From the NCBI RefSeq assembly GCF_000024605.1, contig NC_013385.1, positions 739,501-803,500 of the forward strand: DNA of 64,000 bases, written 5' to 3'. Below are positions 962 through 32,341 of this stretch, piece by piece. Below the pieces are notes generated by a model. It saw only the letters and a program-made list of their open reading frames with translations, made no database searches and was not told where the DNA came from. Source of the DNA: Ammonifex degensii KC4 (GTDB lineage Bacteria; Bacillota; Desulfotomaculia; Desulfotomaculales; Ammonificaceae). How positions within the stretch are numbered: position 1 is the stretch's first letter; each line of letters opens with the position of its first letter. The translations under genes were made by a program, and so were the position numbers.

Positions 962-1264
962 CTGGCGCGGCTCTTCACCGTGCCGATGGACCTGACGGAG
1001 GAGGAGAAGCTCATAGGCGGCGTGCTCTCCCTCCGGCAGGTGGGGTACCTGGTAGGAGGCGGGATGCTCTCCGTGCTGGGTGTGCTCTTCCTCAGGGCGC
1101 TGGGCGCTCCCTGGGCCCTGAGCGTCCTGGCCCTGCCCCCGGGCGCTGCCCTGGGGGTCCTCTTGGCCTTCTACCGCTTCGAGGGTATGAACGCGGACGA
1201 GTTCCTCTACCGCGCGCTCGCGTGGCGCTTCCGGAAAAAACGGTTTGCCTGGAAAGGGGAGTGA
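962..1264 (+). CDS. PrgI/TcpE-like small membrane protein of the T4SS cluster
   Basis: About 100 residues. An N-terminal segment VPMDLTEEEK followed by LSLRQ resembles the start of PrgI-family proteins, which sit directly upstream of VirB4-type ATPases in Gram-positive conjugation loci. Two hydrophobic segments follow, then a basic tail. The conserved-looking residues before the first GTG (980) suggest translation starts at CTG 962, which lies at normal spacing from the ribosome binding site AAGGGGGTGG. If CTG is not used, the protein starts at 980. The predicted role is an inner-membrane channel component. Homology is by pattern only. Confidence 0.6.
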   Translation: MARLFTVPMDLTEEEKLIGGVLSLRQVGYLVGGGMLSVLGVLFLRALGAPWALSVLALPPGAALGVLLAFYRFEGMNADEFLYRALAWRFRKKRFAWKGE

Positions 1265-1268
1265 TACC

Positions 1269-1622
1269 TTGAGACTCAAGACCTTATCTACCGGTCTGCT
1301 GGCTTCCCTCTCTACGCCTTTTCTCCTGGCCGGCCCCGCGCTGGCCCAAGGGCCGGTGAAGGTCGAGACCCCGGAAACGCTGACGCAGAAGCTCTTTGAC
1401 CTCATCAAGAACGTGGGCATGCCGCTGGGCGGGGTGATCTTCTTCGGGGCCATCTGTCTCGGCGCCATCGAGCTCATGCTGGCGAGGGGCAGGCCGGAGG
1501 AGAGGGCGCGGGTGATGTCCGGTCTCATGTACGTGGCGATAGGCGGCGTGATCCTGGGCGCGGCGCTCTTCCTGGCCGGGGCGTTCATAGGCATCGGCCA
1601 GAAGCTCGCCGGCCAAGGATAG
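1269..1622 (+). CDS. VirB2/TrbC-like pilin-type membrane protein
   Basis: The 117-residue product has a signal peptide ending near ALAQ, a short polar stretch, and two hydrophobic segments separated by a basic loop (ARGRPEERAR). This is the usual layout of VirB2/TrbC pilins or their Gram-positive counterparts. The TTG start sits 6-8 bases after AGGGGAGTG and just behind the stop of the PrgI-like gene. It is adjacent to another protein of the same design. The assignment rests on topology and context, not on a diagnostic motif. Confidence 0.5.
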   Translation: MRLKTLSTGLLASLSTPFLLAGPALAQGPVKVETPETLTQKLFDLIKNVGMPLGGVIFFGAICLGAIELMLARGRPEERARVMSGLMYVAIGGVILGAALFLAGAFIGIGQKLAGQG

Positions 1623-1634
1623 GTGGTGGTCTCC

Positions 1635-2003
1635 GTGCGGCTCTTTGCCTGCCTGCTGCTCGCGGTTTTCTTCGCCTCCTGCCTGGTTTTTCCGCTGGTG
1701 GCTTTAGCCGCGGACGCGCAGGGCCCGGCGGGAATACAGCCGATCCCCCCTTCCGAGGCGGTGAACAGGGTGGACACCCTCATGGGCAAGGGCTACCTCG
1801 CCCTGGGGAGCGTGGTGGACAGGCTGGCGCTCCTGGTCTTCGGCGCGGCGGCGGTCTGCGCCCTGGCCGCCTTCTTCACCGGCTGGGCCTTCTTCAAGAA
1901 GGTCCTGGGGATGCTGGCGCTGGTCGCCCTGGGGCTGCTGGTCTTCTACCTGGCGCCCTTCCTCGTGGGAGTGACGAAGGGCATCGCCGTCCACTTCAGT
2001 TAG
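1635..2003 (+). CDS. Second small secreted two-TM protein, pilin-like
   Basis: The 122-residue product has a signal peptide (cleavage near ALAAD), a linker with PIPPSEAVNRV, and two C-terminal membrane helices. The GTG start follows AGGTGGT and almost abuts the stop of the preceding gene. A strong terminator follows. It is probably a channel or pilus component working with its neighbour. An alternative start at 1623 lies inside the ribosome binding site and is less likely. Confidence 0.45.
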   Translation: MRLFACLLLAVFFASCLVFPLVALAADAQGPAGIQPIPPSEAVNRVDTLMGKGYLALGSVVDRLALLVFGAAAVCALAAFFTGWAFFKKVLGMLALVALGLLVFYLAPFLVGVTKGIAVHFS

Positions 2004-2016
2004 GCTTTCTTTTCGC

Positions 2017-2052
2017 GCCGGTGTCCTCCGGGACACCGGCTTTTCCTCTTTT
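2017..2052 (+). terminator. Intrinsic terminator
   Basis: A 10-bp perfect stem (GCCGGTGTCC / GGACACCGGC) with a 4-base loop is followed by TTTTCCTCTTTT. It separates the small membrane genes from the split VirB4 pair. Confidence 0.8.
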
Positions 2053-2117
2053 AAAGACCCTCTTCGAAGAAACTTCTTCTTTCTCGTACCTGACATCGAA
2101 AGACCGGAGGTGACGCT

Positions 2118-2954
2118 GTGGGCCCGCTCGTAGGCGCGCTCTTCTTCGTGCTGGGCATTGCGCTGGCGGCTTCCCTGCCGCTCCTCACGCGGTGGGCGGA
2201 AGCGCGCCAGGCGAGGAGCCGCTGGGACAGGAAGAGAAAGGGCGCCCCCGCGCCGTCCGGAAAGACGGCGGCGAAGGCAAAGGCGCCCGACATCTTCAAC
2301 CTGTGGGAAGTAGAAGACGTCAGGGACGGCCTCGTCAGGCTCACCCGCAACCGCTGGCGTATGGTGCTGAAGCTCTCCCCGGTGAACTTCAGCCTCCTGG
2401 ACGAGGACGGGCAGCTCGTGGTGGAGAACGCCCTGATGTCGGCCTTAATGGCGCTCGACCACCCGGTCGAGTTCGTCTGCACCACGGAGGTGGTCGACAC
2501 CAGGCGGGCGGTGGCGGATCTCGCCGCGGCCAAGTCCAGAGAGACCGACCCCGTCCGGGCGCGCTACGCGTCGGTGCTGCTCTCCTTCCTGGACGAGCTC
2601 ATGACCCGCCGCTCGGCGCTGGTCAAGCGCTCCTACTGCGTCCTGGGCTACGAGGCGGAGGACCCGGCGAAGGCGCGGGGCGTCTTAGAGCACCGGGCGG
2701 CACTTTTGTCCTCCGCCCTGAGCCGCGCGCGGGTAGTCGCCACGCCGCTCGACACCTCGGAGCTCGTGGACCTGCTGCACCACTTCATGAACCGCGGCAG
2801 GCTCCCCCGTCCGTCCGACATGGCCGAGGCGGGGGCCCTGGACCTGGTGATCTCGGGAAGGGGGGTGCGTGTCGGTGGGACTCCTGTGGAAAAAGAGGCG
2901 GGAGGAGCGGGGGCCGGAGCCAGACCCGCTGGGGCTCGGGCAGCCGAGGCTTGA
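2118..2954 (+). CDS. VirB4 N-terminal-like subunit (split VirB4)
   Basis: The 278-residue product begins with a membrane helix and then has a region (about residues 58-130) that reads like the N-terminal domain of VirB4/TraC ATPases: a 'duty' segment, a strand of the form LKLSPVNFSLL, and a helix followed by VEFVC. It lacks a P-loop. The gene overlaps the ATPase gene by 86 bases in another frame. A protein normally encoded as one polypeptide appears here as two translationally coupled pieces. It has an extended Shine-Dalgarno (GGAGGTGACG) and a GTG start. The predicted role is to anchor the motor at the membrane. Confidence 0.55.
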   Translation: MGPLVGALFFVLGIALAASLPLLTRWAEARQARSRWDRKRKGAPAPSGKTAAKAKAPDIFNLWEVEDVRDGLVRLTRNRWRMVLKLSPVNFSLLDEDGQLVVENALMSALMALDHPVEFVCTTEVVDTRRAVADLAAAKSRETDPVRARYASVLLSFLDELMTRRSALVKRSYCVLGYEAEDPAKARGVLEHRAALLSSALSRARVVATPLDTSELVDLLHHFMNRGRLPRPSDMAEAGALDLVISGRGVRVGGTPVEKEAGGAGAGARPAGARAAEA

Positions 2955-4737
2955 AGAGTTCTTCGCCCCCGACGGCCTGGAGGAAGGGAGGGACAGCCTC
3001 TACCTCGGTCCCGGCAGGCTCGCCCGGGTGTTCGTGATCTCCAAGTGGCCCAGGGACGTGCTCCTGGGCTGGCTCGACGAGGTCTTCGCCATAGGCCAGG
3101 TAGACGTCGCGGTCCACGTCCGCCCCGTGCCCGACCGGCTGGTGGTGAAGTCCCTCACCGACCGGGTGGTCTCCGCCCGCTCTCAGCTCATAATCGAGGT
3201 GAAGAAGGGGAGCGTGGTCAGGCTGTCGGAGCTCGAGGCGGTGATAAGGGACCTGGAGGGCTTGCAGGAGGCCATCCAGACCAACCGGGACCGGATGCTG
3301 CACGTGACGGTGGTCATCACCGTCTGGGGCAGGGACGAGGAGGACCTCGACAACCGCTCGAAGGAGCTGGAGAACATCCTGGCCCGGAAGGCGGCGGAAG
3401 TGAGGCCGCTCGTCTTCCGGCAGCTGGAGGGCTTCAAGAACACCCTGCCGGTCATGACCTACTCACTCAGTTCGCCCGGTGCGGTGAGGAACCTGACCCT
3501 GGGGGGTGCGATGGCGTGCCTCCCCGTGACCGCCTCGGAGCTCTCGCACCCGTCGGGCGCCTTCCTGGGCTTCACCTCCACGGGGGCACCGGTCTTCTTC
3601 GACCCCTTCGTGGGCCCTCCCTGGCTCCCGAACCCGCACGTGGCGGCCTTCGGCTACACCGGCTCGGGCAAGTCGGTCACCCTGAAGCTCCTGATAGGCA
3701 GGCTCTCCCTCGCCGGCGTGAGGTTTGTGGTGTTCGACCCGGAGGGGGAGTACCGGCGCCCCTGCCGGGAGCTGTGGGGCGGGGAGGTCATAACCCTGGA
3801 GGCGGGCGTGCCTGCGGGCGTGAACCCGCTCGACCTCCTGCCGGAAAAGGACCCCGACACCGGGAGGGAGGTCGTGAACGTGGCCGACAAGGTGGCGGAC
3901 GTGCGGGCGCTCGTGGCGACCATAGCCCGGGGGTTCGGCGGGAGGGAGCTCACCCCGCAGGAAGTCTCCCTGCTGGAGGCGGCCGTCCGGGAGCTCTACT
4001 CCGAGCGCGGCGTCACCTCCGACCCGGAGAGCCTGTACGAGAGGGGGAGGGCGCTCCCCGACGGCTCCTTCGCCGTGGGCAGGGTCTTGAAGAGGATGCC
4101 GCGGCTCTCCGACCTGGCGGCGAAGCTGGAGAGGTGGCCGGAGACGAAGGACCTGCGGCTCATCCTCGACCCCTTCCTGGAGGGCTCCAGCCTGGGCATG
4201 TTCGACTGCGAGACGGACAAGGAGCTCGACGCGCCGGTGGTGGTCTTCGACCTCTCCCGCATCAAGGACGAGTTCACCAAGCTCTACGCCATGTTCGTGG
4301 TGCTCACCTGGTGCTGGCACCGGTTCGCGCTCAGGCACGCGGGGAAGAAGATGGTGGTGCTGGACGAGGCGTGGATGTTCGCCAAGTGGCCCGACTCGGC
4401 GAAGTTTTTAGAGACCCTGGCGCGCCGGGGGCGCAAGCACAGGACGGGCCTGGTCGTGGCCTCCCAGCACATAGAAGAGTTCCTGGCGCGGGAAGAGGGG
4501 AGGGCGGTCATCTCCTCGTGCGCCACCAGGATCATCCTGGGCCAGAACCCGACGGTGGCCCGGGAGGTGGCGGAGGCCTTCAGGCTCCCCGCCGGCGCGG
4601 AGGAGAGGCTGGCGGGCTACGCCAACGGCCTCTGCCTCCTGGTGGCGGGAAACCAGATGGCCGAGGTGCAGGTCGAGTGCCTGCCCTACGAGCGCCAGTT
4701 CGTCTTCACGGGAGGTGCTGAGAGTGCGCAGTTGTAG
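2869..4737 (+). CDS. VirB4/ConE-type secretion ATPase
   Basis: The 622-residue hexameric-motor ATPase should power assembly or transfer through the T4SS-like channel. The Walker A motif GYTGSGKS is at residues 262-269, and it is followed by VVFDPEGEY as in VirB4/HerA relatives. Walker B is VVLDEAW near residues 496-502, with a downstream SQH motif. The N-terminal 230 residues carry the conserved fold preceding the motor. The GTG start lies inside the end of the preceding gene, so the two are probably co-translated. This is the best supported member of the secretion cluster. Confidence 0.85.
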   Translation: MSVGLLWKKRREERGPEPDPLGLGQPRLEEFFAPDGLEEGRDSLYLGPGRLARVFVISKWPRDVLLGWLDEVFAIGQVDVAVHVRPVPDRLVVKSLTDRVVSARSQLIIEVKKGSVVRLSELEAVIRDLEGLQEAIQTNRDRMLHVTVVITVWGRDEEDLDNRSKELENILARKAAEVRPLVFRQLEGFKNTLPVMTYSLSSPGAVRNLTLGGAMACLPVTASELSHPSGAFLGFTSTGAPVFFDPFVGPPWLPNPHVAAFGYTGSGKSVTLKLLIGRLSLAGVRFVVFDPEGEYRRPCRELWGGEVITLEAGVPAGVNPLDLLPEKDPDTGREVVNVADKVADVRALVATIARGFGGRELTPQEVSLLEAAVRELYSERGVTSDPESLYERGRALPDGSFAVGRVLKRMPRLSDLAAKLERWPETKDLRLILDPFLEGSSLGMFDCETDKELDAPVVVFDLSRIKDEFTKLYAMFVVLTWCWHRFALRHAGKKMVVLDEAWMFAKWPDSAKFLETLARRGRKHRTGLVVASQHIEEFLAREEGRAVISSCATRIILGQNPTVAREVAEAFRLPAGAEERLAGYANGLCLLVAGNQMAEVQVECLPYERQFVFTGGAESAQL

Positions 4738-5413
4738 GTACTTCCTGCTCGCGGGCGTCCTCCTGGCCCTGCTCGCCCTCCCTTCGTGCGGGTGCGGGAA
4801 GCGGGAGCACGCCCCCGCCCGGGCGCCGGGGGTCTCCGTCCGGGAGGACGGGAGGCAGGGGAGCTTACCCGGCCCTGCGGAGCTGGCCGAGAGGGCCTAC
4901 GCCTCCCTCGAAAAGGGCGTCTACTTCGAGGGGAACGCGGAAGTCGTGGGGAAGGGGAAGTGCAGGGTCAAGGGCTGGGCGTGGAAGGATGGCGAGAACG
5001 CCTTCTATTCCCGCACCGAGTCCTGGGACGACTCCCACCGCTTCGTCGTGTGGTACCGTTCGGTCGCCGGTGGACCGGCAGTCCTCGTCCTGCAGGACGC
5101 GCTCACCGGGGAGACCAGGAAGACCGAGCTCCCGGGGCAGGACCTGAGGCCCGCCATCTACGTGTACGGTGCCCCCGCGATACCGCCCAACTGGGGCTGG
5201 TACAAGGAGGCGGGCGTCGAGCGGGTGGGCGGCGTCCCCTGCGTGGTCCTCGACAGGCAGCACGGCACGGAACTGAGGGTCTGGGTGAGGCCGGCCGACG
5301 GCCTGCCCCTCAGGGCGGCCGGCCAGTACGTGAAGGGCTCCCGGGCCGTCTTCGAGGCCACCAGGATAGAAGTCAGGGAAGCACCTCCCGGCACCTTCGA
5401 CCTCCCCGGTTAG
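4724..5413 (+). CDS. Secreted lipoprotein, possibly LolA-like fold
   Basis: The 229-residue product has a lipoprotein signal peptide with lipobox LPSC. The mature part alternates short strands (for example EGNAEVVGKGKCRVKG, RVGGVPCVVLD) and ends with EVREAPPGTFDLPG, a pattern seen in LolA/sigma-regulator-like lipoproteins. The GTG at 4724 is favoured because the upstream GTG at 4715 lies within the ribosome binding site. It overlaps the VirB4 stop, so it is in the same operon. The role in the secretion complex is unknown; it could be an extracytoplasmic scaffold in the position of VirB7/VirB8. Confidence 0.55.
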   Translation: MRSCRYFLLAGVLLALLALPSCGCGKREHAPARAPGVSVREDGRQGSLPGPAELAERAYASLEKGVYFEGNAEVVGKGKCRVKGWAWKDGENAFYSRTESWDDSHRFVVWYRSVAGGPAVLVLQDALTGETRKTELPGQDLRPAIYVYGAPAIPPNWGWYKEAGVERVGGVPCVVLDRQHGTELRVWVRPADGLPLRAAGQYVKGSRAVFEATRIEVREAPPGTFDLPG

Positions 5414-5430
5414 AAAGGGGGGTGATCTCT

Positions 5431-7410
5431 CTGGAAGCCAGAAGAAGAAGGACGCTCTTCGCCCTGCTCCTGCTCTGCTTCCTGGCGGCGGTGCTCTCTT
5501 TCTTCCCGCCTGCCGCCTTCCCGGAAACGCCGGGCTATGAGGGGTCGGACGTTGACGAGTTTCTCAGCCACGCCCACGAGACCCACCTCCCCGGGGCGGC
5601 GGCGTCCTGGCAGGAGGCCCCGGAGAGGCAGCAGGCGCTGAAAGAAAAGTCACAGGACAACCAGCCGACTGAGGACGAGGGTGGCCTCTTCGAGCGGGCC
5701 ATAGCAGAGGTCTTCAACGCCATCTTTAAAGTGCTGTGGGGCCTGCTCGATAACTGGGGCTTCAAAGACCCGGACAAGCTCATCTTCGCGAAGCCCGAGC
5801 GCTGGGACGACCTGCTGCACCCGGCACCCTTCACGCCGGACACGTGGCGGAAGCTGGACGCCATGTACTACGGCATGGTGGGCGTGTCCTGGGCACTCTA
5901 CATGGTCCTCGTCCTGGTCGCCTCCGGGAGGTTCGTGCTCGGGGGCCTCAGCAAGTCCCCCGAGGCCCGGGCCGAGGGGAAGGCGACCCTGTGGCGGATG
6001 CTCTTCGCCCTGGTGGTCATGGCGGGCGCGCCGGTGCTGGTGCGCGCCTTCTTCGTCCTCGCCAACGCCGTCCAGGTGGGGATCGTGGACGCCGCCGGGT
6101 CGAGCTCGGGAATCCTCGACCGGGAGTTCGTACAGAACCTGAAGACCGGTTCGGTGCTCGGCACGGCCATAGTCAAGTGCGCCTTCGCCTGGGTCACCTT
6201 CCACATCAACCTCATCTTCTGGGTCCGCGACGTGGTCATGTACGTGATGTACGTGTTCACGCCGCTGATGGCCGTGCTGTGGGCCACCAACCGGAACGTG
6301 ACGGCGGCGGCCGTCTGGCTGGGCGAGCTCCTGTCCAACGCCTTCCTGCCCGCCGCCTACGCGCTCGCCGGGGCCGTGGTCGTCGTCTTCACGAGTGTCG
6401 GCGACGTCGGGTGGCCCCAGAAGCTCGTGGGCGTCATTATGCTCGTCACCCTGGCGAAGGTGCTGCGGAACGGCCTCCAGGGGCTCTGGACCCGCTGGGC
6501 CGGCGTGGAAGAGGAAGGCGCGGCGGCGAAGATCGCGGCGGGCATCACCGGCGCGATCGGCGTGGCGGGCGTCCTGGGCCTGGGTCGCGCCTTTTCCGCC
6601 AGCCTCGCCCCGCCTAAGATCCAGTTCCCCGCAGGGGGAGTGACAGGCGGTGGTCTCGGCGGCGTGGCGGGCAGTGGAGCGGTGGGCGCGGGTGGCGGGC
6701 TGGCGGGTGGCGGTGCCGGCCCCTGGGGGGTCGCGGGGAGCGTGGCGCCCTCCCTCGGTGGGGCCCCGGGCGGGCTCTCTGCTGCCGGTGCGGGAACTCC
6801 CGGTGGGTTCTCGGTCGCCGGTGTCGGGCTTTCCGGTAGGAGCCTTCCGGGAGAGAGTTCTCCCACCGCGCACCACCTCCTGGGCGGGACCGTCCCGCCC
6901 GGCGAGGGCGTCCCCCACGCGGCCGACCTGTCGAGGGGCGAGAACTGGCACCGGACTCCCACGGGGCTGCTCGCGCCGAACCCCGTTCTGCCCGGTGGAA
7001 CCGTGGGTGCTTCCAGCACGCCGTCTTCCTCGCCGTCCTCACCTCCTCCTCTCACTCCGGAAGCGGAAGCCAGGATGCACGCCCTGCAGGCCATAAACCG
7101 GTTCCACCGCGTGGGACACTTCGCGGGGCGCGTGTCCGCCGGGACCGTGGGGGCGCTCAACGCCCCGGGAGCGGCGGCCGTGCCGGAAGGGATGACGTTC
7201 CTGCGCCAGGTGGCCGGGGCGACCGCGTGGCTGACGGAGAAGGCGGGCTACGCCGCGGGCCTGGCGTACGGCACCTACAGGGCGCTCAAGGGCCGGGAGG
7301 GGAGCGCCTGGGAGAAGCTGAAGCAGGCGCCCAGGACGGCCCTGGACCTCAACAGGGAGTACAGGCAGCTCACCCGGGTGAGGTCCTTCGACGGCTACCG
7401 CTTCCACTGA
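5431..7410 (+). CDS. VirB6/TrbL-like polytopic membrane protein
   Basis: About 659 residues: signal-like N-terminus, a polar segment, then at least six membrane helices (roughly residues 145-385 of the mature order) and a long Gly/Pro/Ser-rich C-terminal region. This is the architecture of VirB6/TrbL-type channel proteins in Gram-positive T4SS. The best start is CTG at 5431, placed 8-9 bases after an extended Shine-Dalgarno AAGGGGGGTGATCT. GTG 5422 is in frame but overlaps that site. The low-complexity tail may face the cytoplasm or the wall. The stop is followed directly by a palindromic hairpin. Confidence 0.65.
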   Translation: MEARRRRTLFALLLLCFLAAVLSFFPPAAFPETPGYEGSDVDEFLSHAHETHLPGAAASWQEAPERQQALKEKSQDNQPTEDEGGLFERAIAEVFNAIFKVLWGLLDNWGFKDPDKLIFAKPERWDDLLHPAPFTPDTWRKLDAMYYGMVGVSWALYMVLVLVASGRFVLGGLSKSPEARAEGKATLWRMLFALVVMAGAPVLVRAFFVLANAVQVGIVDAAGSSSGILDREFVQNLKTGSVLGTAIVKCAFAWVTFHINLIFWVRDVVMYVMYVFTPLMAVLWATNRNVTAAAVWLGELLSNAFLPAAYALAGAVVVVFTSVGDVGWPQKLVGVIMLVTLAKVLRNGLQGLWTRWAGVEEEGAAAKIAAGITGAIGVAGVLGLGRAFSASLAPPKIQFPAGGVTGGGLGGVAGSGAVGAGGGLAGGGAGPWGVAGSVAPSLGGAPGGLSAAGAGTPGGFSVAGVGLSGRSLPGESSPTAHHLLGGTVPPGEGVPHAADLSRGENWHRTPTGLLAPNPVLPGGTVGASSTPSSSPSSPPPLTPEAEARMHALQAINRFHRVGHFAGRVSAGTVGALNAPGAAAVPEGMTFLRQVAGATAWLTEKAGYAAGLAYGTYRALKGREGSAWEKLKQAPRTALDLNREYRQLTRVRSFDGYRFH

Positions 7411-7413
7411 GAG

Positions 7414-7440
7414 GGGGTCACGCGCGTGACCCCTCTCTTT
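7414..7440. repeat. Copy 1 of the GGTCACGCGCGTGACC palindrome
   Basis: A 20-bp perfect palindrome (arms GGGGTCACGC) lies 3 bases after the VirB6-like stop and is followed by CTCTCTTTCTT and the next ribosome binding site. It could act as a terminator or attenuator. The same core occurs in three other intergenic sites in this window. Confidence 0.75.
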
Positions 7441-7459
7441 CTTCGGGGAGGTGGCGCGG

Positions 7460-7675
7460 GTGGGGCTTTTCCTCAAGCTGGTCTTCGCCGTCAAGCTGCT
7501 GGCGGGCTTCTGCGTCCTGGCTACCGTCGCCAACTGCCTGGCTTACCTCGTCGCCCGCCACTTCTGGTTCGACGGCGGCACCCTCGAGCGGAGGCTCGAC
7601 GGTGCTACCGTGTGCTCCATCGGGGCAACCGGCCTGTTTTTCGGGCTCACGCTGCTCTTCGTGCTGTGCCGTTAA
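7460..7675 (+). CDS. Small two-TM membrane protein
   Basis: The 71-residue product has two hydrophobic segments separated by a charged loop (GGTLERRLDGAT). The GTG at 7460 is chosen because 7451 lies inside the ribosome binding site GGGGAGGTGG. No family is recognised. It lies between the VirB6-like gene and the membrane zinc peptidase, so a structural role in the same complex is plausible. Confidence 0.5.
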   Translation: MGLFLKLVFAVKLLAGFCVLATVANCLAYLVARHFWFDGGTLERRLDGATVCSIGATGLFFGLTLLFVLCR

Positions 7676-7746
7676 AAGGAATTTCTTCCCTCCTGTTGAA
7701 GGTTTTCCGGAAAGATCGCCGGGAAGCCGTTAGGAGGGAAGCGGGT

Positions 7747-8475
7747 TTGGCAGAGCCTGTACTGAAGGTGCTTGCGGGTATGGGAGCCCTGTTTCTGGCA
7801 GTGGTACTGAAAGAGGTCAGGAAAAAGCACTTAGGGGAGGCGTTTGAGGAGTTGAAGAGGGTCTGCACCCTGGAGGTTGACGGTCCGCTCGACAACTTCG
7901 GCGTGGTGGCCGAAATAGCGCCGGACGTGGAGCCGGTCTTCGCCCCGGGGTCGGGCCGGTACCTCGTGAAGGAAAAGAAGGTGCTCCTGAGCTACCCGCA
8001 GGGAAGCAGGCAGCTGCTGGCGCTGCTGGAAGCGGCCCACGAAGCGGGGCACGCCCTCCACCGGGTCCGGGCCATAGACTGGATGTACGATCCCCGGCTG
8101 AAAAACAGTGCTTACTTGCTCCTGACGCTGGCCGCCTTGGCTTTCGTCCTGCTCTGGCCGGGCAACCGCACGGCGGCCTGCGCGGCGCTGCTGAGCCCCT
8201 TACTGGTCTTATACTCTCTCTTCGTCGCCGTCCGCGCGTATGAAGAGCTGAAGGCCGTTTTCTTCTCTTTCCGCTGGCTGAGCTCTTACCTCAACGGGCT
8301 CGGACTCGACAGGAAGGAATTCAGGACGCTGGTGTGTGTCTTGAGGGCGAAAACGGCCATGGAGGCGGCGTTTGTGGTCATCAATGGGTTGGCCTGCCTG
8401 TCCTTTGCGTTGGGTCTCTACCTGCTTCTCCTTGCGGGGCTGGAGCTCGACTTGTACCTGAGAGGCGGGGTCTGA
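7747..8475 (+). CDS. Membrane zinc metallopeptidase (HEAGH; YugP/M48-like)
   Basis: The 242-residue protein has an N-terminal membrane helix, a cytoplasmic catalytic segment with AAHEAGHALH (zinc ligands in HEAGH) and two or three C-terminal helices. The order HExGH then paired helices resembles the YugP-type zinc peptidases (DUF/Zn_peptidase_2). The TTG at 7747 is preceded by TAGGAGGG at 8-base spacing, which decides the start. Such enzymes usually degrade or process membrane proteins. In this cluster it may mature channel components. Confidence 0.65.
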   Translation: MAEPVLKVLAGMGALFLAVVLKEVRKKHLGEAFEELKRVCTLEVDGPLDNFGVVAEIAPDVEPVFAPGSGRYLVKEKKVLLSYPQGSRQLLALLEAAHEAGHALHRVRAIDWMYDPRLKNSAYLLLTLAALAFVLLWPGNRTAACAALLSPLLVLYSLFVAVRAYEELKAVFFSFRWLSSYLNGLGLDRKEFRTLVCVLRAKTAMEAAFVVINGLACLSFALGLYLLLLAGLELDLYLRGGV

Positions 8476-8476
8476 C

Positions 8477-8584
8477 ATGCGCTGTAGCAGGCAGAGGGAA
8501 ATGGACTGTATGTTCGTCGAGATGGTACTGCTCACCTCGCTAGTCATGCTCTACATGCTGCTGATGGGCTTCCCGCCGTTCTAG
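8477..8584 (+). CDS. Very small hydrophobic peptide (35 aa)
   Basis: An ATG start one base after the preceding stop encodes a 35-residue peptide with one predicted membrane helix (about residues 13-31, Met/Leu rich). The ribosome binding site would be GAGGCGGGG within the end of the preceding gene. It fills the gap before a palindromic hairpin. No homologue is recognised and it may be a non-functional frame. Confidence 0.35.
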   Translation: MRCSRQREMDCMFVEMVLLTSLVMLYMLLMGFPPF

Positions 8585-8607
8585 CCCCTGCCCGGCGTCG
8601 AAAAAAA

Positions 8608-8645
8608 GGAGAGGGGTCACGCGCGTGACCCCTCTCCCCTTTCTC
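8608..8645. repeat. Copy 2 of the GGTCACGCGCGTGACC palindrome
   Basis: This is the longest copy: a 30-bp perfect palindrome (outer arms GGAGAGG / CCTCTCC) preceded by seven A and followed by CCCTTTCTC, then the ribosome binding site of the wall hydrolase. The A tract and T-rich tail would make it a bidirectional hairpin. Confidence 0.8.
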
Positions 8646-8657
8646 GGGGGTGGTCTC

Positions 8658-10400
8658 TTGAGCACGGGCAGGAGAGTCCTGAACGCGGCCTTCCGGTGGG
8701 CGGCGAGGAAGGCCCTCGCGGCGGCGCTCCCCTGGCTGGGGCCGGTCGCCGTGGTCGCCGCCGTCCTCTTTCTCTTCATCGTCCTCGTGGCGGCGGTCTA
8801 CTGCGCCATGTGCCCGGGCTCCTACACCCAGGACGTAAAGCCCTCTCCCGAGGACCAGAAGGTCGTGGCCGAGTACGAGGGGCTGGCGGGGAGGGCCAAC
8901 CGGATGGACACCTGGTGCGTCAACCCGGACAGCCCTTCCCGCCCCGGCGGGCCGAGCTACGAGTCGACGCCCGACAACCCCTACTACGAGAGCCGGGGGA
9001 AGGTGGAGTACCTGGGCGAGATGGTGGACCGCTACCGGAACGACTTTCGGCTCAGGCTCACCTGGGGGCAGATACACGGCGCCTGCGTCTACCGGAACAT
9101 AGCGTTCAACCAGCCCGAGATCACGAAGGAGCAGAGGGAGAAGACCGCGAAAGACCTGCACCCGTACTTCTACTACAAGAAGTCCGTGGTCATCGTCTCC
9201 GGCAAGGACGGGACGGAGGAGTACGAGGTCTACCTGCTGGTGGAGGCGTACACCATCCAGGGGTGGTACCAGTTCCACTACGAGTGGGTGACGGAGTGCC
9301 ACGACGGCGGCTGCGTGACCTACGAGCGGCTGAAGAGCGTCAACCTGGTGAGGCCCGACCGGTGGGAGAGGCTCGAGGACTGGATGAAGAAGGAATACAA
9401 GCTCAGGGACGACGAGAAGGAGGTCGAGACGGCGCGGGTGTGGCTGTGGGAGGCGACCAGGGGCTTCGACGCCAGGGCGGAGTGGCTGGCGTGGCTCGCG
9501 GGGCTCCCCTCGCTCGACCCGTACTTCTCCGCCGCCGCCGTGCCGCCGGAGTTCGTGCCGTTCCTGAAGAAGGCGGAGGAGGCGTTCGGCATCCCCTGGT
9601 GGTTCCTGGCGGCGCTCTTCCAGACGGAGAGCTCGTGGGACCCCTTCGCCGTCAACCCCAAGACCGGCTGCTTCGGGATCTCCCAGCAGCACCCGGAGTA
9701 CTGGAAGGCCCGCTGGGAGGAGCTGAAGAGGATGGGGCTCGTCAGCTTCAGCACCCCGGAGGAGCTGCAGTGGGACCCGCTCGCGCAGATCCTGGCGGGC
9801 GCTTTAGACCTCAGGAACAAGTTCCTCCGGGCGGGAGTCGACCCCAGGGAGGTCGACTGGAAAGGGGGCGGCTGGAAGAGCGACGAGCGGGTCTTGAAGG
9901 CCGTGGCCTGGTACAAAGGGTGGAGCGACTGGAGGGAAGGGATGGCGCAGGTAAAGCAGGTGCTGGAGCTCGCAGAGGCGGTCCTCGAGAGGCCCGCCGC
10001 CTGGCCGGTGCCCGGCTTCTACCGGGTCTCCTCGCCGTACGGCTGGCGCAAGCACCCGGTGACGGGAGAGTGGAAGTTCCACTACGGCATCGACGTCCCG
10101 CTCGAGACCGGCACCCCGGTGGTGGCGGTCTCTTCGGGCGTAGTGACCTTCGTGGGCTGGCAGGAAGGCTACGGCTACACCGTCTGCTACCGGGACGCCA
10201 ACCACCTCTACCTCTACGCCCACCTCCTGCCGGACAGCGCCGGGGTGAAGGTCGGAGACAAGGTGTCCCCGGGGCAGGTCCTGGCGAAGGGGGACAGCAC
10301 GGGAGTGTCCACCGGGCCGCACCTGCACTTCGGCGTGAAGGACCTGGCGAACGACCACTGGATCGACCCGTTGCTGGTGCTCGGCGTGAAGGTGAAGTAG
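8658..10400 (+). CDS. Bifunctional cell-wall hydrolase: SLT-type transglycosylase plus M23 endopeptidase
   Basis: The 580-residue protein has an N-terminal membrane helix, a long extracellular spacer, a lytic-transglycosylase-like domain (about residues 295-400, with FQTESSWDPFAVN and GCFGISQQHP) and a C-terminal M23/LytM domain (about 455-575). The M23 part shows SPYGWRKHPVTGEWKFHYGI, a YAHL segment and HLHFGV, which contain the metal ligands. This pairs with the T4SS as in CwlT/VirB1-type enzymes: it opens peptidoglycan for the channel. The TTG at 8658 follows GGGGGTGGT. The domain pairing SLT+M23 instead of SLT+NlpC/P60 is a variant. Confidence 0.85.
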   Translation: MSTGRRVLNAAFRWAARKALAAALPWLGPVAVVAAVLFLFIVLVAAVYCAMCPGSYTQDVKPSPEDQKVVAEYEGLAGRANRMDTWCVNPDSPSRPGGPSYESTPDNPYYESRGKVEYLGEMVDRYRNDFRLRLTWGQIHGACVYRNIAFNQPEITKEQREKTAKDLHPYFYYKKSVVIVSGKDGTEEYEVYLLVEAYTIQGWYQFHYEWVTECHDGGCVTYERLKSVNLVRPDRWERLEDWMKKEYKLRDDEKEVETARVWLWEATRGFDARAEWLAWLAGLPSLDPYFSAAAVPPEFVPFLKKAEEAFGIPWWFLAALFQTESSWDPFAVNPKTGCFGISQQHPEYWKARWEELKRMGLVSFSTPEELQWDPLAQILAGALDLRNKFLRAGVDPREVDWKGGGWKSDERVLKAVAWYKGWSDWREGMAQVKQVLELAEAVLERPAAWPVPGFYRVSSPYGWRKHPVTGEWKFHYGIDVPLETGTPVVAVSSGVVTFVGWQEGYGYTVCYRDANHLYLYAHLLPDSAGVKVGDKVSPGQVLAKGDSTGVSTGPHLHFGVKDLANDHWIDPLLVLGVKVK

Positions 10401-11053: not shown

Positions 11054-11087
11054 AAAGGGGTCACGCGCGTGACCCCTTTCTTTTTTT
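11054..11087 (+). terminator. Copy 3 of the GGTCACGCGCGTGACC palindrome, terminator-like
   Basis: A 26-bp perfect palindrome with outer AAA/TTT is followed by CTTTTTTT and, 4 bases later, the ribosome binding site of the GGDEF gene. This copy has the form of a canonical rho-independent terminator. Confidence 0.8.
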
Positions 11088-11104
11088 CGAGGAGGTGATG
11101 AGTT

Positions 11105-13225
11105 TTGCGCGTGCTCCTGGCCACCGGCATAGAGGAGCTGGACGAGGGCGTGGCGGCCCTGCTCGCGGGGCGCGGCGGCTTCGAGGTCGCGGGCGAGTGC
11201 TACTACCGCGAGGGACTGACCCTCCTGCTCCGGGAGAAGGGCGCCGACGCGGTGGTGCTGTCCCCCCGCCTGCCGGGCCAGGTCGGGCTCCCGGAACTGG
11301 TAAAGGAGCTCAGGATGGCCGGGGTGAGGGTGGTGCTGCTGCCGGGAAGCAGGGAGGACGGGGAGGCGGTGGAACTCGCCAGGAAGGCCGTGGCCCTGGG
11401 CGTCTACGACATAGTGTGGGACCCGGTGAAGCCCCAGAAGGTCGTCTACCGGCTGGAGAACCCGGCCGGTTTGAAGGACGCGGGCGTGGAGCCCGACTTC
11501 GGCGCGGTGGAGTACGAGCCGCCGCCCGCCCCCGTCCGGGAAGACAAAGAGGAGAAGAAGGCTTCTCTCTTGAAGAGGCTGTTCCCCTTCAGGCGCGCCC
11601 GGAAGAGTGGAGAGGAGTCCTCTCACGGGCGGGAGAAGACCAGAAGCAGGCGCGGCAAGAAGCGTGAGGCGGAAGTGTCGTCTCCCGTCCCGGTAGACGC
11701 CGGAGACGCGAGAGAAACGGTTTCCACACCGCTCCAGGAGGGTGCCAGGCCGGGCGCGGGCGGTGAAGGTGTGGCGCCACCCCGCCAGGAGGGAGAAAGA
11801 CCTGTTTCCCGGACCCGGGAGGGGGGCGGCGTCCTGGTCCTGGCGCCGCCCGAGGTGGCCGCGCGCCTCGCCCGCGCCGGCTTCCGGGTCGTCTCCGACC
11901 CCCGGGACGCGGGCGCGTGCGTCTGCGCGCCGGACAAGGTGCCCTTCGCCCCGGAGGGGGTGCCGGTGCTGGTCCTGAAGACCGGCAGGCTCTCCGACCT
12001 GCTGGCGGCCTCGCAGAAGCCCTCGGCCCGGCCGGTAGACCCCGACAGGCTGGAGGAAGAGCTCCGGGCCGCCCTGGGCGGCACTCCCTCGCCCGGGCCC
12101 GCGCCTGGAGAGGTGCCGGGAGGGGCCCGTGTCTCCCCGGACGGCGCTCCCCCGTCCGGGCCCGCGCCCGAGAGGGCCCCGGGGGTGGGGCCCGCCGGTG
12201 CCCGCGACCCCCTCACCGGGCTCCACACCCGCGACCTGCTCGCCTCCCTCGTCCCGGGTGAGGTCTGCTCCGTGGTCTTCGTCGACCTCGACGGCTTCAA
12301 GCGGGTCAACGACACCTACGGGCACGACGAGGGCGACCGGGTGCTGGCGCTCTTCGGCGAGTGCCTGCGGCGGCGCCTGCGGGAGAGAGACCTGGCGGTG
12401 AGGTGGGGCGGCGACGAGTTCGTCCTCGTCCTGCCGGACACGCACCCCGGCGCGGCGGAGAGGGTGGTCGAAGATCTGCGCCGGGAGTGGGAGCGGGTGC
12501 GCCCCTACCCCGTGGGCTTCTCCGCCGGGACGGCGGCGGTGAGAGGCAGCCTGGAGGAGGCGGTGAGGGAGGCGGACAGGAGGATGTACGCCGAGAAGGC
12601 CGCCCGGAAGGCGAGGGAGGAGGCGCTCGGGGCCGCCCGCCCGAGGCTGGCGGTCCTCCCCGGCCGGAAGGGGGAGGACGGCTTCACCCTGCCGGAGCAC
12701 GGCGTGGTCTACGTGGTGTGCCCGGGCGAGCCACCGGCCGCGGGCAGGCTGGCCGCCTCTCTAGCCGGGCAGGCGGAGGGGGCGGCCCTGGTCTGCGCCT
12801 CCCCCACCTCCACCGCCGCCCTGGCGCTGGGGATGAGGCCCGAGGACCTGGTCACCCGCGACTGGCGCGTCCCCGGCTCGGACGCCCCGGTGACCTTCGG
12901 CGGGGTGGTGGTCTGGCCGGTGGATCCGGCGAAGTTCCTGGACGTCCGCGACGCCCTGCCGAACGCCCTGGTGAGCCAGGTGAGGCACAGGTTCCGGCTC
13001 GTGGTGGTGGACTGCGGGGGCGACCTGGGCGTGGCCGCGGGCGCCCCCAGGGACGCGGTGGTGCTGGCCCTGAAGACCGGCAGGCCCGCCGCCGACTGGG
13101 CGCTCGACCAGTGGCTCAAGTCCTACGGCGCCAACGCCGTAGTCCTGACCGCGGGCCAGGCGGTGGCGCTGGAGGGGCACAGTGGAGGCTTCGTGGGGCA
13201 CGTCCAGGGAAGGCCGCACGTCTAG
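11105..13225 (+). CDS. Receiver-like / GGDEF diguanylate cyclase / CpaE-like fusion protein
   Basis: The 706-residue protein has four parts. Residues 1-130 are receiver-like, of the CpaE N-terminal type. A basic and Pro-rich linker follows, then a second degenerate receiver-like unit at about 240-310. A GGDEF domain spans about 375-520 with intact WGGDEF (434-439) and an inhibitory RxxD site at 426-429, so synthesis of c-di-GMP from two GTP with product inhibition is expected. The C-terminal 180 residues resemble a CpaE/MinD fold, but the P-loop is replaced by PGEPPAAGRL, so ATP binding is doubtful. The TTG start sits behind GGAGGTGATG. It probably couples c-di-GMP production to localisation of the pilus or T4SS. 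Confidence 0.75.
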   Translation: MRVLLATGIEELDEGVAALLAGRGGFEVAGECYYREGLTLLLREKGADAVVLSPRLPGQVGLPELVKELRMAGVRVVLLPGSREDGEAVELARKAVALGVYDIVWDPVKPQKVVYRLENPAGLKDAGVEPDFGAVEYEPPPAPVREDKEEKKASLLKRLFPFRRARKSGEESSHGREKTRSRRGKKREAEVSSPVPVDAGDARETVSTPLQEGARPGAGGEGVAPPRQEGERPVSRTREGGGVLVLAPPEVAARLARAGFRVVSDPRDAGACVCAPDKVPFAPEGVPVLVLKTGRLSDLLAASQKPSARPVDPDRLEEELRAALGGTPSPGPAPGEVPGGARVSPDGAPPSGPAPERAPGVGPAGARDPLTGLHTRDLLASLVPGEVCSVVFVDLDGFKRVNDTYGHDEGDRVLALFGECLRRRLRERDLAVRWGGDEFVLVLPDTHPGAAERVVEDLRREWERVRPYPVGFSAGTAAVRGSLEEAVREADRRMYAEKAARKAREEALGAARPRLAVLPGRKGEDGFTLPEHGVVYVVCPGEPPAAGRLAASLAGQAEGAALVCASPTSTAALALGMRPEDLVTRDWRVPGSDAPVTFGGVVVWPVDPAKFLDVRDALPNALVSQVRHRFRLVVVDCGGDLGVAAGAPRDAVVLALKTGRPAADWALDQWLKSYGANAVVLTAGQAVALEGHSGGFVGHVQGRPHV

Positions 13226-21683: not shown

Positions 21684-23745
21684 TTGCGCCTTTACGTCGT
21701 CTTCGGCGAATTCACGGAAAAGCTCTGCCAGCGCCTTTCTTCCAGGTACGAGATAATCGGCTCCGACCGCACCCTGGAAGCGGCGGTGGCCGCGGCGGGG
21801 GTTCTCGAAAGACACCCCGACGCCTTCCTGGTCCTGGGGGACGCGCTGGCCTCTACGCTGGTGGACGGCAAGTTCGACCGCGACGCGGCCTTAGTCAGGA
21901 ATCTAGAGGAGCTCAGGAAGACCTGCCCGACGAGCCGCGTGGTCCTGGTCCTGGGACCGAGAGCGAGCGACTCCCTGGTCCAGGAGATAGCCAAGCTGGG
22001 GATCTACGACATCCACCGCGTCGGGGAAGTCACCCCGGACACTCTCTGCGCGCTCGTAGAGACCCGCAAGACCTTCGCCGACTACGACATCGACTTAAAA
22101 GTCACCGGGAGCGCGGGGGAAACTCCCCGCGTCGCGGTCCGGGAACCAGAGGAGAAAGCCCCCAGGCCCTCCGTAAGGGACCTCGTAGCGGGCCTCGCAC
22201 GCTTGGTCCCGCGTCCCAAAACGGAGTCACAGCCGGGTGAAATTACGGACGGGAAAAAGGCAGTCGACCGGGCGCGGGCGTCTGCCTGCACGAACTCCAT
22301 TCCGCCGGGTGGGGGAGGGAAAGAGGTGGAGAAAAGGGGCGGGGGAACTCCGAAAATGCCGTTCTGGCAGAAGCTCTTCCGGCGGGCGAAGGCCGCCACG
22401 GAGGAGCAGGGAAAGCGGAACGGGGTCGGGGCACTGCCAGGACCGGCGACGGAGCATCCGGAACCGCTCCCGGCGGCGGGCGGGGTTACTGCCCCGCTTG
22501 ATCTGGAGAGGGAGCCTTTTGGGGGACCCGTACCACCCCCTGTCCGGCGCGAGGGTAGCCGCGCGGACAGCCCGGTTCCCGACACGGGGGCCCGCAGGGC
22601 CCCGGGGGAGCGGCGGAGTGTTCCCGCCGTGCTTCTCCTGGGAAACCGGTCGGAAGCGCTTGCTGCCGAGGTGGTGTCCCGGGGGTGGCGGACGGTGATC
22701 GGCAACCCTTCGGCGCCGGTGGATGCAGCGGTGGTGGACACCGAGCTTTTGCCTGCCGTGCTTGACAGGTTGCGGTGCCCGGTGGTGGCCCTCAGTTCCG
22801 GGCGGTTGAGCGACTGGCTTTCGCTAACCGACTGCGGCGTGCCGGTTGTCGTCGGCGGTGCCGCGTGCCTTGCTCTGGTGGCCGAGCACCTGGGGAGTTG
22901 TCCGGGGGTTCGGCTTCCCGTGGGGGAACGCCCCACCGCGGGGGATTCTACTTCCGCCGCGTGCGGTGGGAGCGCTTCCCGGTTTGCTCCTCCCGCGAGG
23001 AGGGGTATTGTCCTCGCCTTCTACTCCGGTGCGCAGGGGTTCCAAGGGAAGACCGCCCTGGCCGTCAATACGGCGGCCCTGCTGGCGGAGAGGGGGCTCT
23101 CGGTGTGCCTGGTGGATCTGGACACTGACAAGGCCGGGCTGACGGCGCTGTGCGGCTTCTCCGAGACGAACCCCCCGCCGGCTGACTTGGTTGCCTGCCT
23201 TGGAGAGGCACCCCCCAGTCGGGGGCCCCGCCGGGGTGAAGCTCGTTCCCGCGCCGCTCCGGTCGCCGGGCTGGTTCCCCGAGCCGCGCCAGGCTGAGGA
23301 ACTCGTGGCGAGGCTTGCTTCGGGCCACGACGCCGTCGTGCTGGACTTCGGGGCCAGACTGGCGTCCCCTGCCGTGGTGGTCTTGCTCAGGTCGTGCGAT
23401 AGGGTGTTCCTCGTCTCGACCCCGCTCCGCACAGCGCTCAGGGCGGTGTCCCGGTTCCGCGGCAGGGGGTTGGCCGAGGTGGGCGGCGAGAAAGTCGTGG
23501 CGGTGATAAACCGCGTCGGGGTGAGGGGAGGTCTCTCGCCCCGCGACGCCGCACACCTTCTGGGCTTCGGTGAATTCTTCGAGGTGCCCGAGGACCCGGC
23601 GGTGATGCAGGCTGAAAACGAGGCCCTGGAGAGAGGCGTGTATGCTCCCCCTGCCCTTAAAAAGAAGAGCCTGATCAGGTCGGCTCTCTTGGCTCTTTTG
23701 GACCGGGCGGGCGCGTGGCGGAAAAAGGAGGTTGAGTTGTGCTGA
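21684..23745 (+). pseudogene. CpaE-like protein with two receiver-like domains, +1 frameshift
   Basis: The N-terminal receiver-like domain (1-140) is followed by a Pro/charged linker, a second degenerate receiver-like unit (about 310-420) and a CpaE/MinD-like ATPase domain whose P-loop reads GAQGFQGKTA: the GKT is kept but the signature lysine of KGG is lost. Translation in the first frame ends at 23297. The family-like sequence continues in the next frame (KLVPAPLRSPGWFPEP ... VVLDFGARL) to 23745. Removing one C from the six-C run at 23211-23216 restores one continuous protein of about 686 residues. It could be an inactivated gene, a slippage-controlled gene or a sequencing error. TTG start behind GGGGGTGGT. 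Confidence 0.65.
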
Positions 23746-24434
23746 GCGGCTTCTATCTGCACTACCAGCCCATCTTCTACCTGCACGACCTCTCCCGGGT
23801 GCTGGGGTACGAGGCGTTGCCGCGCCACCCGGCTGGGTGGTCACCCCACGACCTGCTGCGGGAGGCCAGGCGTGTCGGCGCGATCCCGGTGTGGGAGCTG
23901 AGGGTGCTTGAAAGGGCGGTCGAGGAGGTGCTGCTGCGCACCTCCGAAACGCTCTTCCTCAACCTCACGCCGGAGGCGTTCACGGATACCGCTTTCGCGG
24001 TAAGGGTGAGGCGCGCGGTAGAGGGGAAAGGTGTTTCGCCGACCAGGGTGTGCGTGGAGGTCTCCGAACAGAGCCTCTACACGCCGGAGGAGTTCGGGCG
24101 CGCGCTGGAGGAGTGGGTCGGCCTGGGCTTCTACGTGGCGCTGGACGACTTCGGTACGAAGGGGTCGAACCTGGACATCGTGCTCTCCGTGAAGCTGGAC
24201 TTTGTGAAGCTGGACAGGGTGCTGGTCGGCGGGATTTCCCGCGACCGGCAAAAGCAGAGGTTGTTGACGGGGCTGGTGGAGGCGCTGTCCGGCAACGGCG
24301 TGTACCCCATCCTGGAGGGGGTCGAGGACGAGGATGACATGAAATGGCTCGCGGGGAAGGGCTGGGACGTGGGTGTGCAGGGCTTCGCCCTCGCCCGCCC
24401 GGGCTCTTTACCGTGTAGGCTCGAAAGGAGTTGA
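23739..24434 (+). CDS. Stand-alone EAL-domain c-di-GMP phosphodiesterase
   Basis: The 231-residue, single-domain protein is predicted to hydrolyse c-di-GMP to pGpG. The catalytic set looks complete: EAL at 25-27, Asn in NLTP, Glu in CVEVSE, ALDDFG, the Lys of VKLDR, EGVE and the terminal VQGFALARP. The GTG start overlaps the end of the frameshifted CpaE-like gene and uses AAAGGAGG, so it is translationally coupled to it. It is the natural counterpart of the GGDEF protein at 11105. No sensor domain is attached, so control may come from partner proteins. Confidence 0.85.
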   Translation: MLSGFYLHYQPIFYLHDLSRVLGYEALPRHPAGWSPHDLLREARRVGAIPVWELRVLERAVEEVLLRTSETLFLNLTPEAFTDTAFAVRVRRAVEGKGVSPTRVCVEVSEQSLYTPEEFGRALEEWVGLGFYVALDDFGTKGSNLDIVLSVKLDFVKLDRVLVGGISRDRQKQRLLTGLVEALSGNGVYPILEGVEDEDDMKWLAGKGWDVGVQGFALARPGSLPCRLERS

Positions 24435-30301: not shown

Positions 30302-31794
30302 TGCGGGAGGTCAGGAACTTCTTCCTGGCGGTCCTGGGGGCGCTGGCGGTACTGCTCGGCGCCCTCAGCGTTTCCCCCGCCCTGGCCAGGGAAGTGCCGG
30401 TGGATCTGCGGCTCGTGGAAAGGGCCAACAACTACGTTTGGGAGAAGTTCGGGTTCTCCGAGTTCTTCGCCCCGACCAACCAGCAGGGGCAGGGCCTGCG
30501 GCAGCACTGGCTGAAGTCCGACATGGTGCCCGACTCCTTCCCCATACTGGTCTGGGGGCCCTGGCACGGGGACATGAAGGGAGACCGCGCCAGGTTCATC
30601 GGGTACGGGAAGTACGGCGAGGACGTGACCAACGTCGAGTTCCCGCCGGACAGGTCGGGCGGCGGGAGGTCGATAGCCTCCCTCAACTGGATACCGAGGC
30701 CGTGGGAGGACTACTCCGTCCGCAAGGCCTTCCCGAACTTCGTTAAGAGCCGAAGACTTGACGCCAAGGCCAACCCGGAGGTAGTCCAGCGGCTCCGCTG
30801 GGGCGTGGAGTACACCTGCTGGGCCAACGGCTTCGCCTTCGACCCGAGCGCCCCCGTCTACCAGAGCCCGCAGGAGTATGTGCACATCACCGTGCCGCCC
30901 ACTCCCGACACGTGGGGCATGGGCGTGATGTTCCACGACGAGGGCAGCGGCGTCTGGTACGTCTCCGTGCCGATACCGCCCAAGCCGCCGGTAATGCCCG
31001 ACTACGCCGTGGACGTACAGCCGCGGGAGCAGACCGGGCAGGTCGGGCAGGCCGTGACCTTCGACATAACCGTCTCCTGGAGGGACAACCCGTCCGACCG
31101 GACCTGGCGGCTCATCCTGGCGCACAAGGTAGGTGACAGGCAGTACCCGGTGCCGTTCGTCTTAACCGGGGGCGGAGAGACGGTGCAGTCCATACAGCTC
31201 GACGACCAGAGCTACGCCGACTTTCCCGGCATCGGGCAGTGGGAAGGGGAAGTACATGTCCAGGCCACGGTGCATGTGCAGGAGGTGCCGTCCACGCTTG
31301 TAGCGCAGGTGGTGCCGGTGGACGGCAACACGGACATGCCGCTGCCGATTGAGCCGCCTTACGACTTCGACCCGTCCGACAACGAGGTCGCGGCGCAGAT
31401 AAAGCCGCTCGGCTGCGACCTGGCGGTGAGCGTGAGGCCCGCGGGAAGCTACAGGCTCCCTTGGACCGGCGGGTGCGTGAACGCGGGCGCGCTGGTGGAC
31501 GTGCGGAGGAAGGACCAGGGGCCTCCCGTGGAGGCGGTGCTGACCCTCCAAGGGCCCGCGGGGACTCAAGAGAAGCGCTTCACCATAGCGGGCGGCGAGA
31601 GGAAGACCTTCGGCTACTCGTTCCGGGCCTGCTCGCCCGGGAACTACGCGGTGAGCGCCGAGGTCTGGCCCGTCCCGCGGGAGCAGGAGCTGTACCCGCC
31701 GGACAACGCCGCCTCCGCCGTGGTGAGCGTCGCGAAGACGCAACCGCCGCCCACCCCGAAGTCCGACGTCCACGTCGAGCTGGGCGGCTCTTAA
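30301..31794 (+). CDS. Large secreted protein with C-terminal Ig-like/CARDB-like domains
   Basis: The 497-residue protein has a signal peptide (cleavage near ALAR). The N-terminal 230 residues are rich in aromatic residues. Two C-terminal beta-sandwich-like units follow (YAVDVQPREQTGQVGQAVTF and LAVSVRPAG ... PPDNAASAVVSV), which resemble CARDB/adhesion modules. It is coupled to the preceding gene by stop-start overlap. The architecture resembles that of the protein at 53801. It is a likely surface or pilus-associated protein of unknown ligand. Confidence 0.6.
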   Translation: MREVRNFFLAVLGALAVLLGALSVSPALAREVPVDLRLVERANNYVWEKFGFSEFFAPTNQQGQGLRQHWLKSDMVPDSFPILVWGPWHGDMKGDRARFIGYGKYGEDVTNVEFPPDRSGGGRSIASLNWIPRPWEDYSVRKAFPNFVKSRRLDAKANPEVVQRLRWGVEYTCWANGFAFDPSAPVYQSPQEYVHITVPPTPDTWGMGVMFHDEGSGVWYVSVPIPPKPPVMPDYAVDVQPREQTGQVGQAVTFDITVSWRDNPSDRTWRLILAHKVGDRQYPVPFVLTGGGETVQSIQLDDQSYADFPGIGQWEGEVHVQATVHVQEVPSTLVAQVVPVDGNTDMPLPIEPPYDFDPSDNEVAAQIKPLGCDLAVSVRPAGSYRLPWTGGCVNAGALVDVRRKDQGPPVEAVLTLQGPAGTQEKRFTIAGGERKTFGYSFRACSPGNYAVSAEVWPVPREQELYPPDNAASAVVSVAKTQPPPTPKSDVHVELGGS

Positions 31795-31801
31795 AGGATA
31801 T

Positions 31802-31839: not shown

Positions 31840-31853
31840 TCGAGGTGTTGGGG

Positions 31854-32312: not shown

Positions 32313-32315
32313 AAA

Positions 32316-32331: not shown

Positions 32332-32341
32332 CTCCCCGCAG

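Follow-up and report, generated by a model that had tools for sequence, protein, structure and literature searches.

The window analysed here, a 64,000 nucleotide stretch of the genome of the thermophile Ammonifex degensii KC4 (positions 739501-803500), carries at 11105..13225 on the + strand a gene of 706 codons plus stop (coding 11105-13222), which is supported by the ORF call, profile matches, and third-codon-position GC (GC3). There is a Shine-Dalgarno sequence, AGGAGGTG, at 11090..11097 on the + strand, seven bases 5' of the TTG start. Third-codon GC is 0.94-0.97 across all four domains of the protein, a pattern which matches that of VirB4 and CpaF of the window, and this is therefore a genuine coding frame. 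A chance or shadow ORF is ruled out by this pattern, together with the Shine-Dalgarno sequence and the existence of an orthologue-like relative. That the gene is a one-off fusion or an assembly artefact is likewise ruled out, the fusion being seen again in at least 13 genomes.

The domain order is REC1, linker, pREC2, linker, GGDEF, and pseudo-MinD (pMinD). In the full-length fold prediction REC1 and the GGDEF domain are modelled well and pREC2 and the linkers poorly, while pMinD is modelled poorly in the full-length alignment and well only from an alignment of its own. The predicted model superposes on PleD, WspR, and DgcR over residues 1-502 (Z 20.4 for PleD), with a rigid-body rmsd to PleD that is large because the inter-domain angles differ. 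A previous sequence-only reading had placed an ORF with receiver-like, GGDEF, and C-terminal domains at exactly these coordinates, and its reading of the parts, as receiver-like, an intact GGDEF, and a P-loop-less MinD/CpaE-like C-terminus, is backed by the structure prediction. What it did not contain are the second, degenerate receiver-like stretch, the same fusion in relatives, the versions without a GGDEF that occupy the same gene slot, and the setting in a putative integrative conjugative element (ICE).

REC1 (about residues 1-126, 11105..11482, + strand) is an atypical receiver-like domain that lacks the phospho-acceptor Asp. Its receiver-like fold is predicted with confidence by AlphaFold (pLDDT about 97 for residues 1-125), it aligns with PleD, WspR, and DgcR, and it matches the REC1 profile with an E of 6e-53, although that profile itself includes the window sequence. 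There is a Ser at the acceptor site in the window protein and in 13 out of 14 aligned family members, which sets REC1 apart from phosphorylatable receivers of the PleD type, with their acidic pair, Asp, and Lys. Further along, pREC2 (about residues 240-331, 11822..12097, + strand) appears to be a second, degenerate receiver-like stretch. It shares 37% identity with the N-terminal part of the CpaE encoded at 43938 in the window (E 4e-9) and is modelled with low confidence. In the 706-aa protein the GGDEF domain separates pREC2 from pMinD.

The GGDEF domain (residues 366-505, 12200..12619, + strand; pLDDT about 95) matches the Pfam GGDEF model over residues 385-502 (E 3.3e-27) and TIGR00254 (E 3e-28), and GGDEF-type models are the only Pfam models to match the protein. 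The motif region, RERDLAVRWGGDEF, reads RERD-LAVRW-GGDEF, such that the active-site motif (G435-F439, 12407..12421, + strand) is preceded by five residues and the I-site RERD (R426xxD429, 12380..12391, + strand), and both sites are intact, as had been proposed. The I-site Arg is variable, the closest relatives having a Lys at the first position (KxxD), while the active-site motif is complete, as GGDEF or GGEEF, in every tabulated fusion. By motif and by modelled fold the protein is predicted to be an active diguanylate cyclase. There are at least eight further GGDEF loci in the genome.

The C-terminal domain, pMinD (about residues 525-706, 12677..13222, + strand), appears from its fold model and alignment to be a MinD/ParA-fold pseudo-ATPase with a DWRVPGS motif. 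Structure prediction of the C-terminal region had been suggested as a check, and when residues 520-706 are aligned with 18 relatives and modelled by AlphaFold (mean pLDDT 91.1, pTM 0.89) Foldseek and VIA-align do place the domain in the MinD/ParA fold, with Z 13.2 for both 1g3q (MinD) and 3ea0 (ParA family) and Z 12.1 for FleN, where rows within 1 Z unit count as tied. The fold match rests on the model, since the pMinD profile has no significant match among PDB sequences, and there is no family model for the domain in Pfam or NCBIfam. At the P-loop site the window protein has PGEPPAAGRL and the relatives mostly have PWRPxLAGRL, and the P-loop Lys is missing from all 19 aligned pMinD sequences. 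The DWRVPGS motif and the Asp of the Walker B region (D117 of the domain) are invariant in the same 19 despite the lost Lys, which would suggest that the domain is being conserved rather than decaying and, from its motifs, that it is a conserved pseudo-ATPase. Compared with what defines CpaE/TadZ, the MinD/ParA fold is present and a Walker A or deviant Walker A is not. When profiles are compared, pMinD and intact CpaE proteins show weak similarity (hhalign probability 12.7, p 0.0023), and the label CpaE-like therefore rests upon the fold, pREC2, and the gene context. Without the P-loop Lys, a CpaE-like localisation of the protein cannot be assumed.

Upstream of the gene is a T4SS-like module (980..10400, + strand) of a PrgI-like protein, a VirB2/TrbC pilin (1245), VirB4 (2118-4737), a VirB6-like protein, and an SLT+M23 peptidoglycan hydrolase (8625). 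Downstream are Tad genes (31461..51160, + strand), comprising TadE/G-like genes, a prepilin peptidase, and two sets of CpaB/CpaE/CpaF/TadB/TadC. CpaE genes are at 43938, 45042, and 46774 and a CpaF gene is at 48085, and the P-loop is intact in the CpaE encoded at 43938. Between them is a stand-alone EAL c-di-GMP phosphodiesterase gene with its catalytic motifs kept (23739..24434, + strand), the sole EAL gene near the locus. No c-di-GMP receptor is recognised in the locus, and the only PilZ of the genome is about 1.27 Mb away. Adjoining CpaE, at 42932-43933, is a MinD-region protein with no Pfam or NCBIfam family match. Frameshifts break three genes of the window, a REC-MinD paralogue (21684; about 23200), a CpaE-like gene (24373; about 25500), and one CpaF (40327; about 41060), and may be due to decay or to sequencing error. 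Since the broken genes include a Tad motor gene, out of the two present, and a pair of MinD-like genes, part of the locus may be decaying.

The order of genes is recurrent, running VirB4-VirB6-SLT/M23, a modular protein, CpaB-CpaE-CpaF-TadB-TadC, and a copper-amine-oxidase-N protein. Across the order, a REC1-bearing modular protein is found within about 2 kb after 23 out of 26 full-length SLT/M23 genes, and in the three exceptions (G010, G012, G020) the contig ends there. In G086 the cyclase is upstream of TadE, TadG, TadC, CpaB, and CpaE, an arrangement that it shares with the window. The protein is thus, like CpaE/TadZ, encoded at a tad locus by conserved gene order, and the tie to the Tad pilus system that had been made from the one sequence holds in many genomes. 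It is plausible that the protein would place c-di-GMP synthesis at the pilus site. Many proteins in this slot have no GGDEF, and the slot therefore does not depend upon the making of c-di-GMP.

Just 5' of the gene, at 11054..11079 on the + strand, there is a palindromic hairpin followed by a T-run. The perfect palindrome, GGTCACGCGCGTGACC, occurs four times in the window (7416-7431, 8615-8630, 11059-11074, 32316-32331), against a chance expectation of 0.79 copies when up to 3 mismatches are allowed. All four are intergenic and just 5' of gene starts, and those at 7416, 8615, and 11059 have a pyrimidine or T-rich run directly after them. There are seven exact copies in the genome, the others being at 733197, 892677, and 1370846, and five of the seven are within the putative element described below. 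The palindrome is a possible shared attenuator or operator. The window contains no Rfam families.

The window lies inside a 145 kb region, 701804-847159 in the genome, that is bounded by a 28 bp exact direct repeat, CGTGAATGATGTAGCTCCAATTAAGCCC, at 701804 and 847132. A tyrosine integrase gene ends at about 847067, beside the right copy of the repeat, and VirD4 (PF02534) is at 831382, a distance of 83 kb downstream. In ten comparable loci of eight further genomes VirD4 is 30-57 kb downstream, on the same strand and contig. The region also contains SSB, primase, the VirB2-like pilin, and VirB4, and thus has VirB4, VirD4, and an integrase within one set of direct repeats, as would an ICE. For most of its length it is richer in GC than the left flank. 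Its GC is about 0.60-0.70, dropping to near 0.56 in one stretch towards the right end; that of the left flank is about 0.56-0.63, and this flank also holds one AT-rich stretch near 670-679 kb. No tRNA was found at the repeat, and the relaxase PF03432 (MobA/VirD2) is absent from the genome. These features strongly suggest, rather than demonstrate, that the region is an integrative conjugative element. Since the locus sits with VirB2, VirB4, and VirD4 in such a putative element, the machine that the cyclase serves may be a conjugation apparatus.

Other mobile and repeated sequences are present in and around the region. The window has an IS607-type serine recombinase with TnpB at 15596-17654 and a second TnpB-like gene at 60494-61558. 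Elsewhere inside the element (L230 7541-15270, genome about 810940-818670) there is, judging from a reading of the genes, a putative type III CRISPR effector module with a large Cas10-like protein and RAMP-like neighbours, and a two-gene block is duplicated about 15 kb apart (L230 2088-4022 and 17365-19299). A HEARO RNA (Rfam RF02033; L232 12976-13244) is just outside the element.

Of 113 genomes covered from the order, 16 have the pMinD domain, and a 398-genome sample of the phylum adds 8 more. A relative from G086, in another family, is 57% identical and has pREC2-GGDEF-pMinD, its N-terminus being cut by the contig end. In the order and phylum samples together, a GGDEF is found with a pMinD or CpaE-like domain in one ORF in 15 HMM-supported genes from 13 genomes (the window, L127, L129, L131, L132, L133, L134, L180-L184, L191, L193, L194), to which reading of the sequences adds three that look similar (L199, L208, L213). 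The HMM scan gives varied arrangements: REC-REC-GGDEF-pREC2-pMinD (L180-L182), MinD-like-GGDEF-pMinD-like (L131, L132), ParA-GGDEF-TM (L133), REC-GGDEF-ParA with an intact KGGVGKT (L134), and REC-GGDEF-REC-pMinD (L129). In Ammonifex thiophilus (L144) the slot protein has no GGDEF and there is a separate GGDEF-EAL gene in the same cluster. Searches with the whole protein return nearly all unrelated GGDEF proteins, the only match outside the GGDEF being from A. thiophilus (L009). When 41 GGDEF domains are placed in a maximum-likelihood tree, those of eight slot proteins, including that of the window, group together with support (97/90), and five domain architectures are represented among them. 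This would suggest that the GGDEF lineage is retained in the slot as the domains joined to it are exchanged. The tree is compatible with one origin for all of the slot GGDEFs and equally with more than one.

The sequence-only reading had not known this domain order as a described family, and no such architecture is catalogued in the Pfam or NCBIfam libraries or in open-licence papers, in a search that was not exhaustive. Among open-licence PMC papers, those on GGDEF with CpaE, TadZ, or MinD describe no such fusion, and those on Tad genes in conjugative elements describe no such arrangement. The fusion of GGDEF with a MinD/CpaE-like domain is a recurrent and apparently undescribed architecture. 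It is a new combination of known parts and not a new kind of enzyme, and it brings to light in the DWRVPGS domain an uncatalogued conserved pseudo-ATPase domain.

The reading favoured here, with a probability of about 0.58, is that the protein is a competent, element-borne diguanylate cyclase built into a pilus or transfer machine, where it would be docked through its CpaE-like pseudo-ATPase. REC1 and pREC2 would be non-phosphorylatable modules of the CpaE/TadZ and PleD kind, serving as surfaces for dimerisation or docking. The pMinD domain would attach to the complex of the Tad assembly ATPase (the CpaE-CpaF ring), or to partners of that complex, without ATP hydrolysis, so that the protein joins or touches the ring through pREC2 and pMinD. 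In a published model six CpaE dimers encircle CpaF and touch one another through their REC domains (PMC13170226). Docking may pair or orient the GGDEF domains, such that c-di-GMP would be made at the machine, with product feedback via the RxxD site, and the local c-di-GMP might then switch assembly, retraction, or transfer through a putative effector. The activity of the Caulobacter Tad pilus does respond to c-di-GMP (PMC6581867). The EAL gene 10 kb downstream (23739) would erase the signal, as the natural opponent of the cyclase.

It might instead be that the GGDEF is a sensor or scaffold like BcsE, binding c-di-GMP at the I-site and holding the machine together, with catalysis weak or irrelevant. 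In BcsE the REC-GGDEF tandem is degenerate; the protein binds c-di-GMP, and BcsQ, a member of the MinD family, is recruited by it (PMC7439463). The slot members that have no GGDEF would allow a scaffold role to be ancestral. The GGDEF motif is, however, intact in all of the tabulated fusions, unlike that of BcsE, and the I-site Arg is not conserved among the nearest relatives, which have KxxD. A kept active site with a variable I-site Arg is the opposite of what a pure sensor would predict, making this role improbable. An ordinary soluble cyclase that feeds the global c-di-GMP pool, with pREC2 and pMinD serving simply for dimerisation or regulation and the association with Tad/T4SS genes due to hitch-hiking on a mobile element, would fit with the eight or more other GGDEF loci, with how commonly domains are shuffled, and with the cargo usual on such elements. 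The slot is conserved, together with the genes beside it, across many families of both the order and the phylum, and the GGDEF lineage remains in the slot as its partners change, both of which make this unlikely as well.

That the gene is a relic, in decay along with the element that carries it, as the three other, frameshifted genes of the window might imply, is scarcely credible when the ORF is intact, the GC3 signal is strong in every domain, the catalytic motifs are all kept, and there is a 57% identical relative in another family. It is quite possible that the Tad genes encode ordinary adhesion pili carried as cargo by the element and that the cyclase controls adhesion rather than conjugation, which overlaps with the favoured reading, as that leaves the purpose of the machine open. 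Tad pili are known adhesins, those of Caulobacter are acted upon by c-di-GMP (PMC6581867), and the T4SS and Tad modules are distinct gene families. Against this, VirB4 and SLT/M23 adjoin the Tad genes and are collinear with them in many genomes, and VirD4 follows on the same strand in the ten loci noted above, as it does at the greater distance here.

A more speculative extension of the docked cyclase, and on present evidence a doubtful one, is that there is a family of Firmicute ICEs with a hybrid T4SS-Tad machine, in which the mating filament would be switched by an on-board c-di-GMP circuit. The cyclase, placed in the CpaE-CpaF ring via its pseudo-ATPase, would be opposed by the EAL protein of the element, such that the element controls its own local pool. 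The recurrent T4SS-Tad arrangement on a putative mobile element does raise the question of whether Tad filaments are used in conjugation. Covalent fusion of the cyclase with a CpaE-like part, which recurs and does so in varied domain orders, makes local signalling directly testable.

Like CpaE/TadZ, the window protein has an atypical receiver-like domain and a MinD/ParA-fold domain and is encoded with CpaB, CpaF, TadB, and TadC, and its pREC2 shares the 37% identity with the N-terminus of the intact CpaE of the window. Unlike CpaE/TadZ, it lacks the P-loop Lys, has an altered A' motif, gains a GGDEF and an extra receiver, and is only weakly similar in its ATPase-domain profile. It shares with PleD and WspR the receiver domain or domains followed by a GGDEF with active and I sites (model Z 20 to PleD over 1-502), but its receivers have no phospho-acceptor Asp, its linkers are long and of low complexity, and neither PleD nor WspR has a C-terminal pseudo-MinD.

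The surrounding region resembles the Firmicute VirB4/PrgI-type conjugative elements in its VirB2-like pilin, PrgI, VirB4, VirB6-like protein, SLT/M23, VirD4, integrase, and flanking direct repeat, and differs from them in having Tad assembly genes and a diguanylate cyclase inside the transfer region and no PF03432 relaxase found. The R64 thin pilus, a type IVb pilus used in conjugation, is likewise a type IV filament with its genes on a conjugative element, whereas the window has Tad (type IVc) genes whose role in mating is putative; R64 is not known to have a diguanylate cyclase. By analogy, the nearest described logic is that of BcsE-BcsQ in E. coli cellulose secretion, where a REC and GGDEF regulator with c-di-GMP input is tied, at the machine for secretion, to a protein of the MinD family. 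There the GGDEF has no catalytic activity and the MinD-family NTPase, BcsQ, is a protein of its own (PMC7439463), whereas the window protein has an intact GGDEF motif and carries its MinD-like, P-loop-less part as a fused domain.
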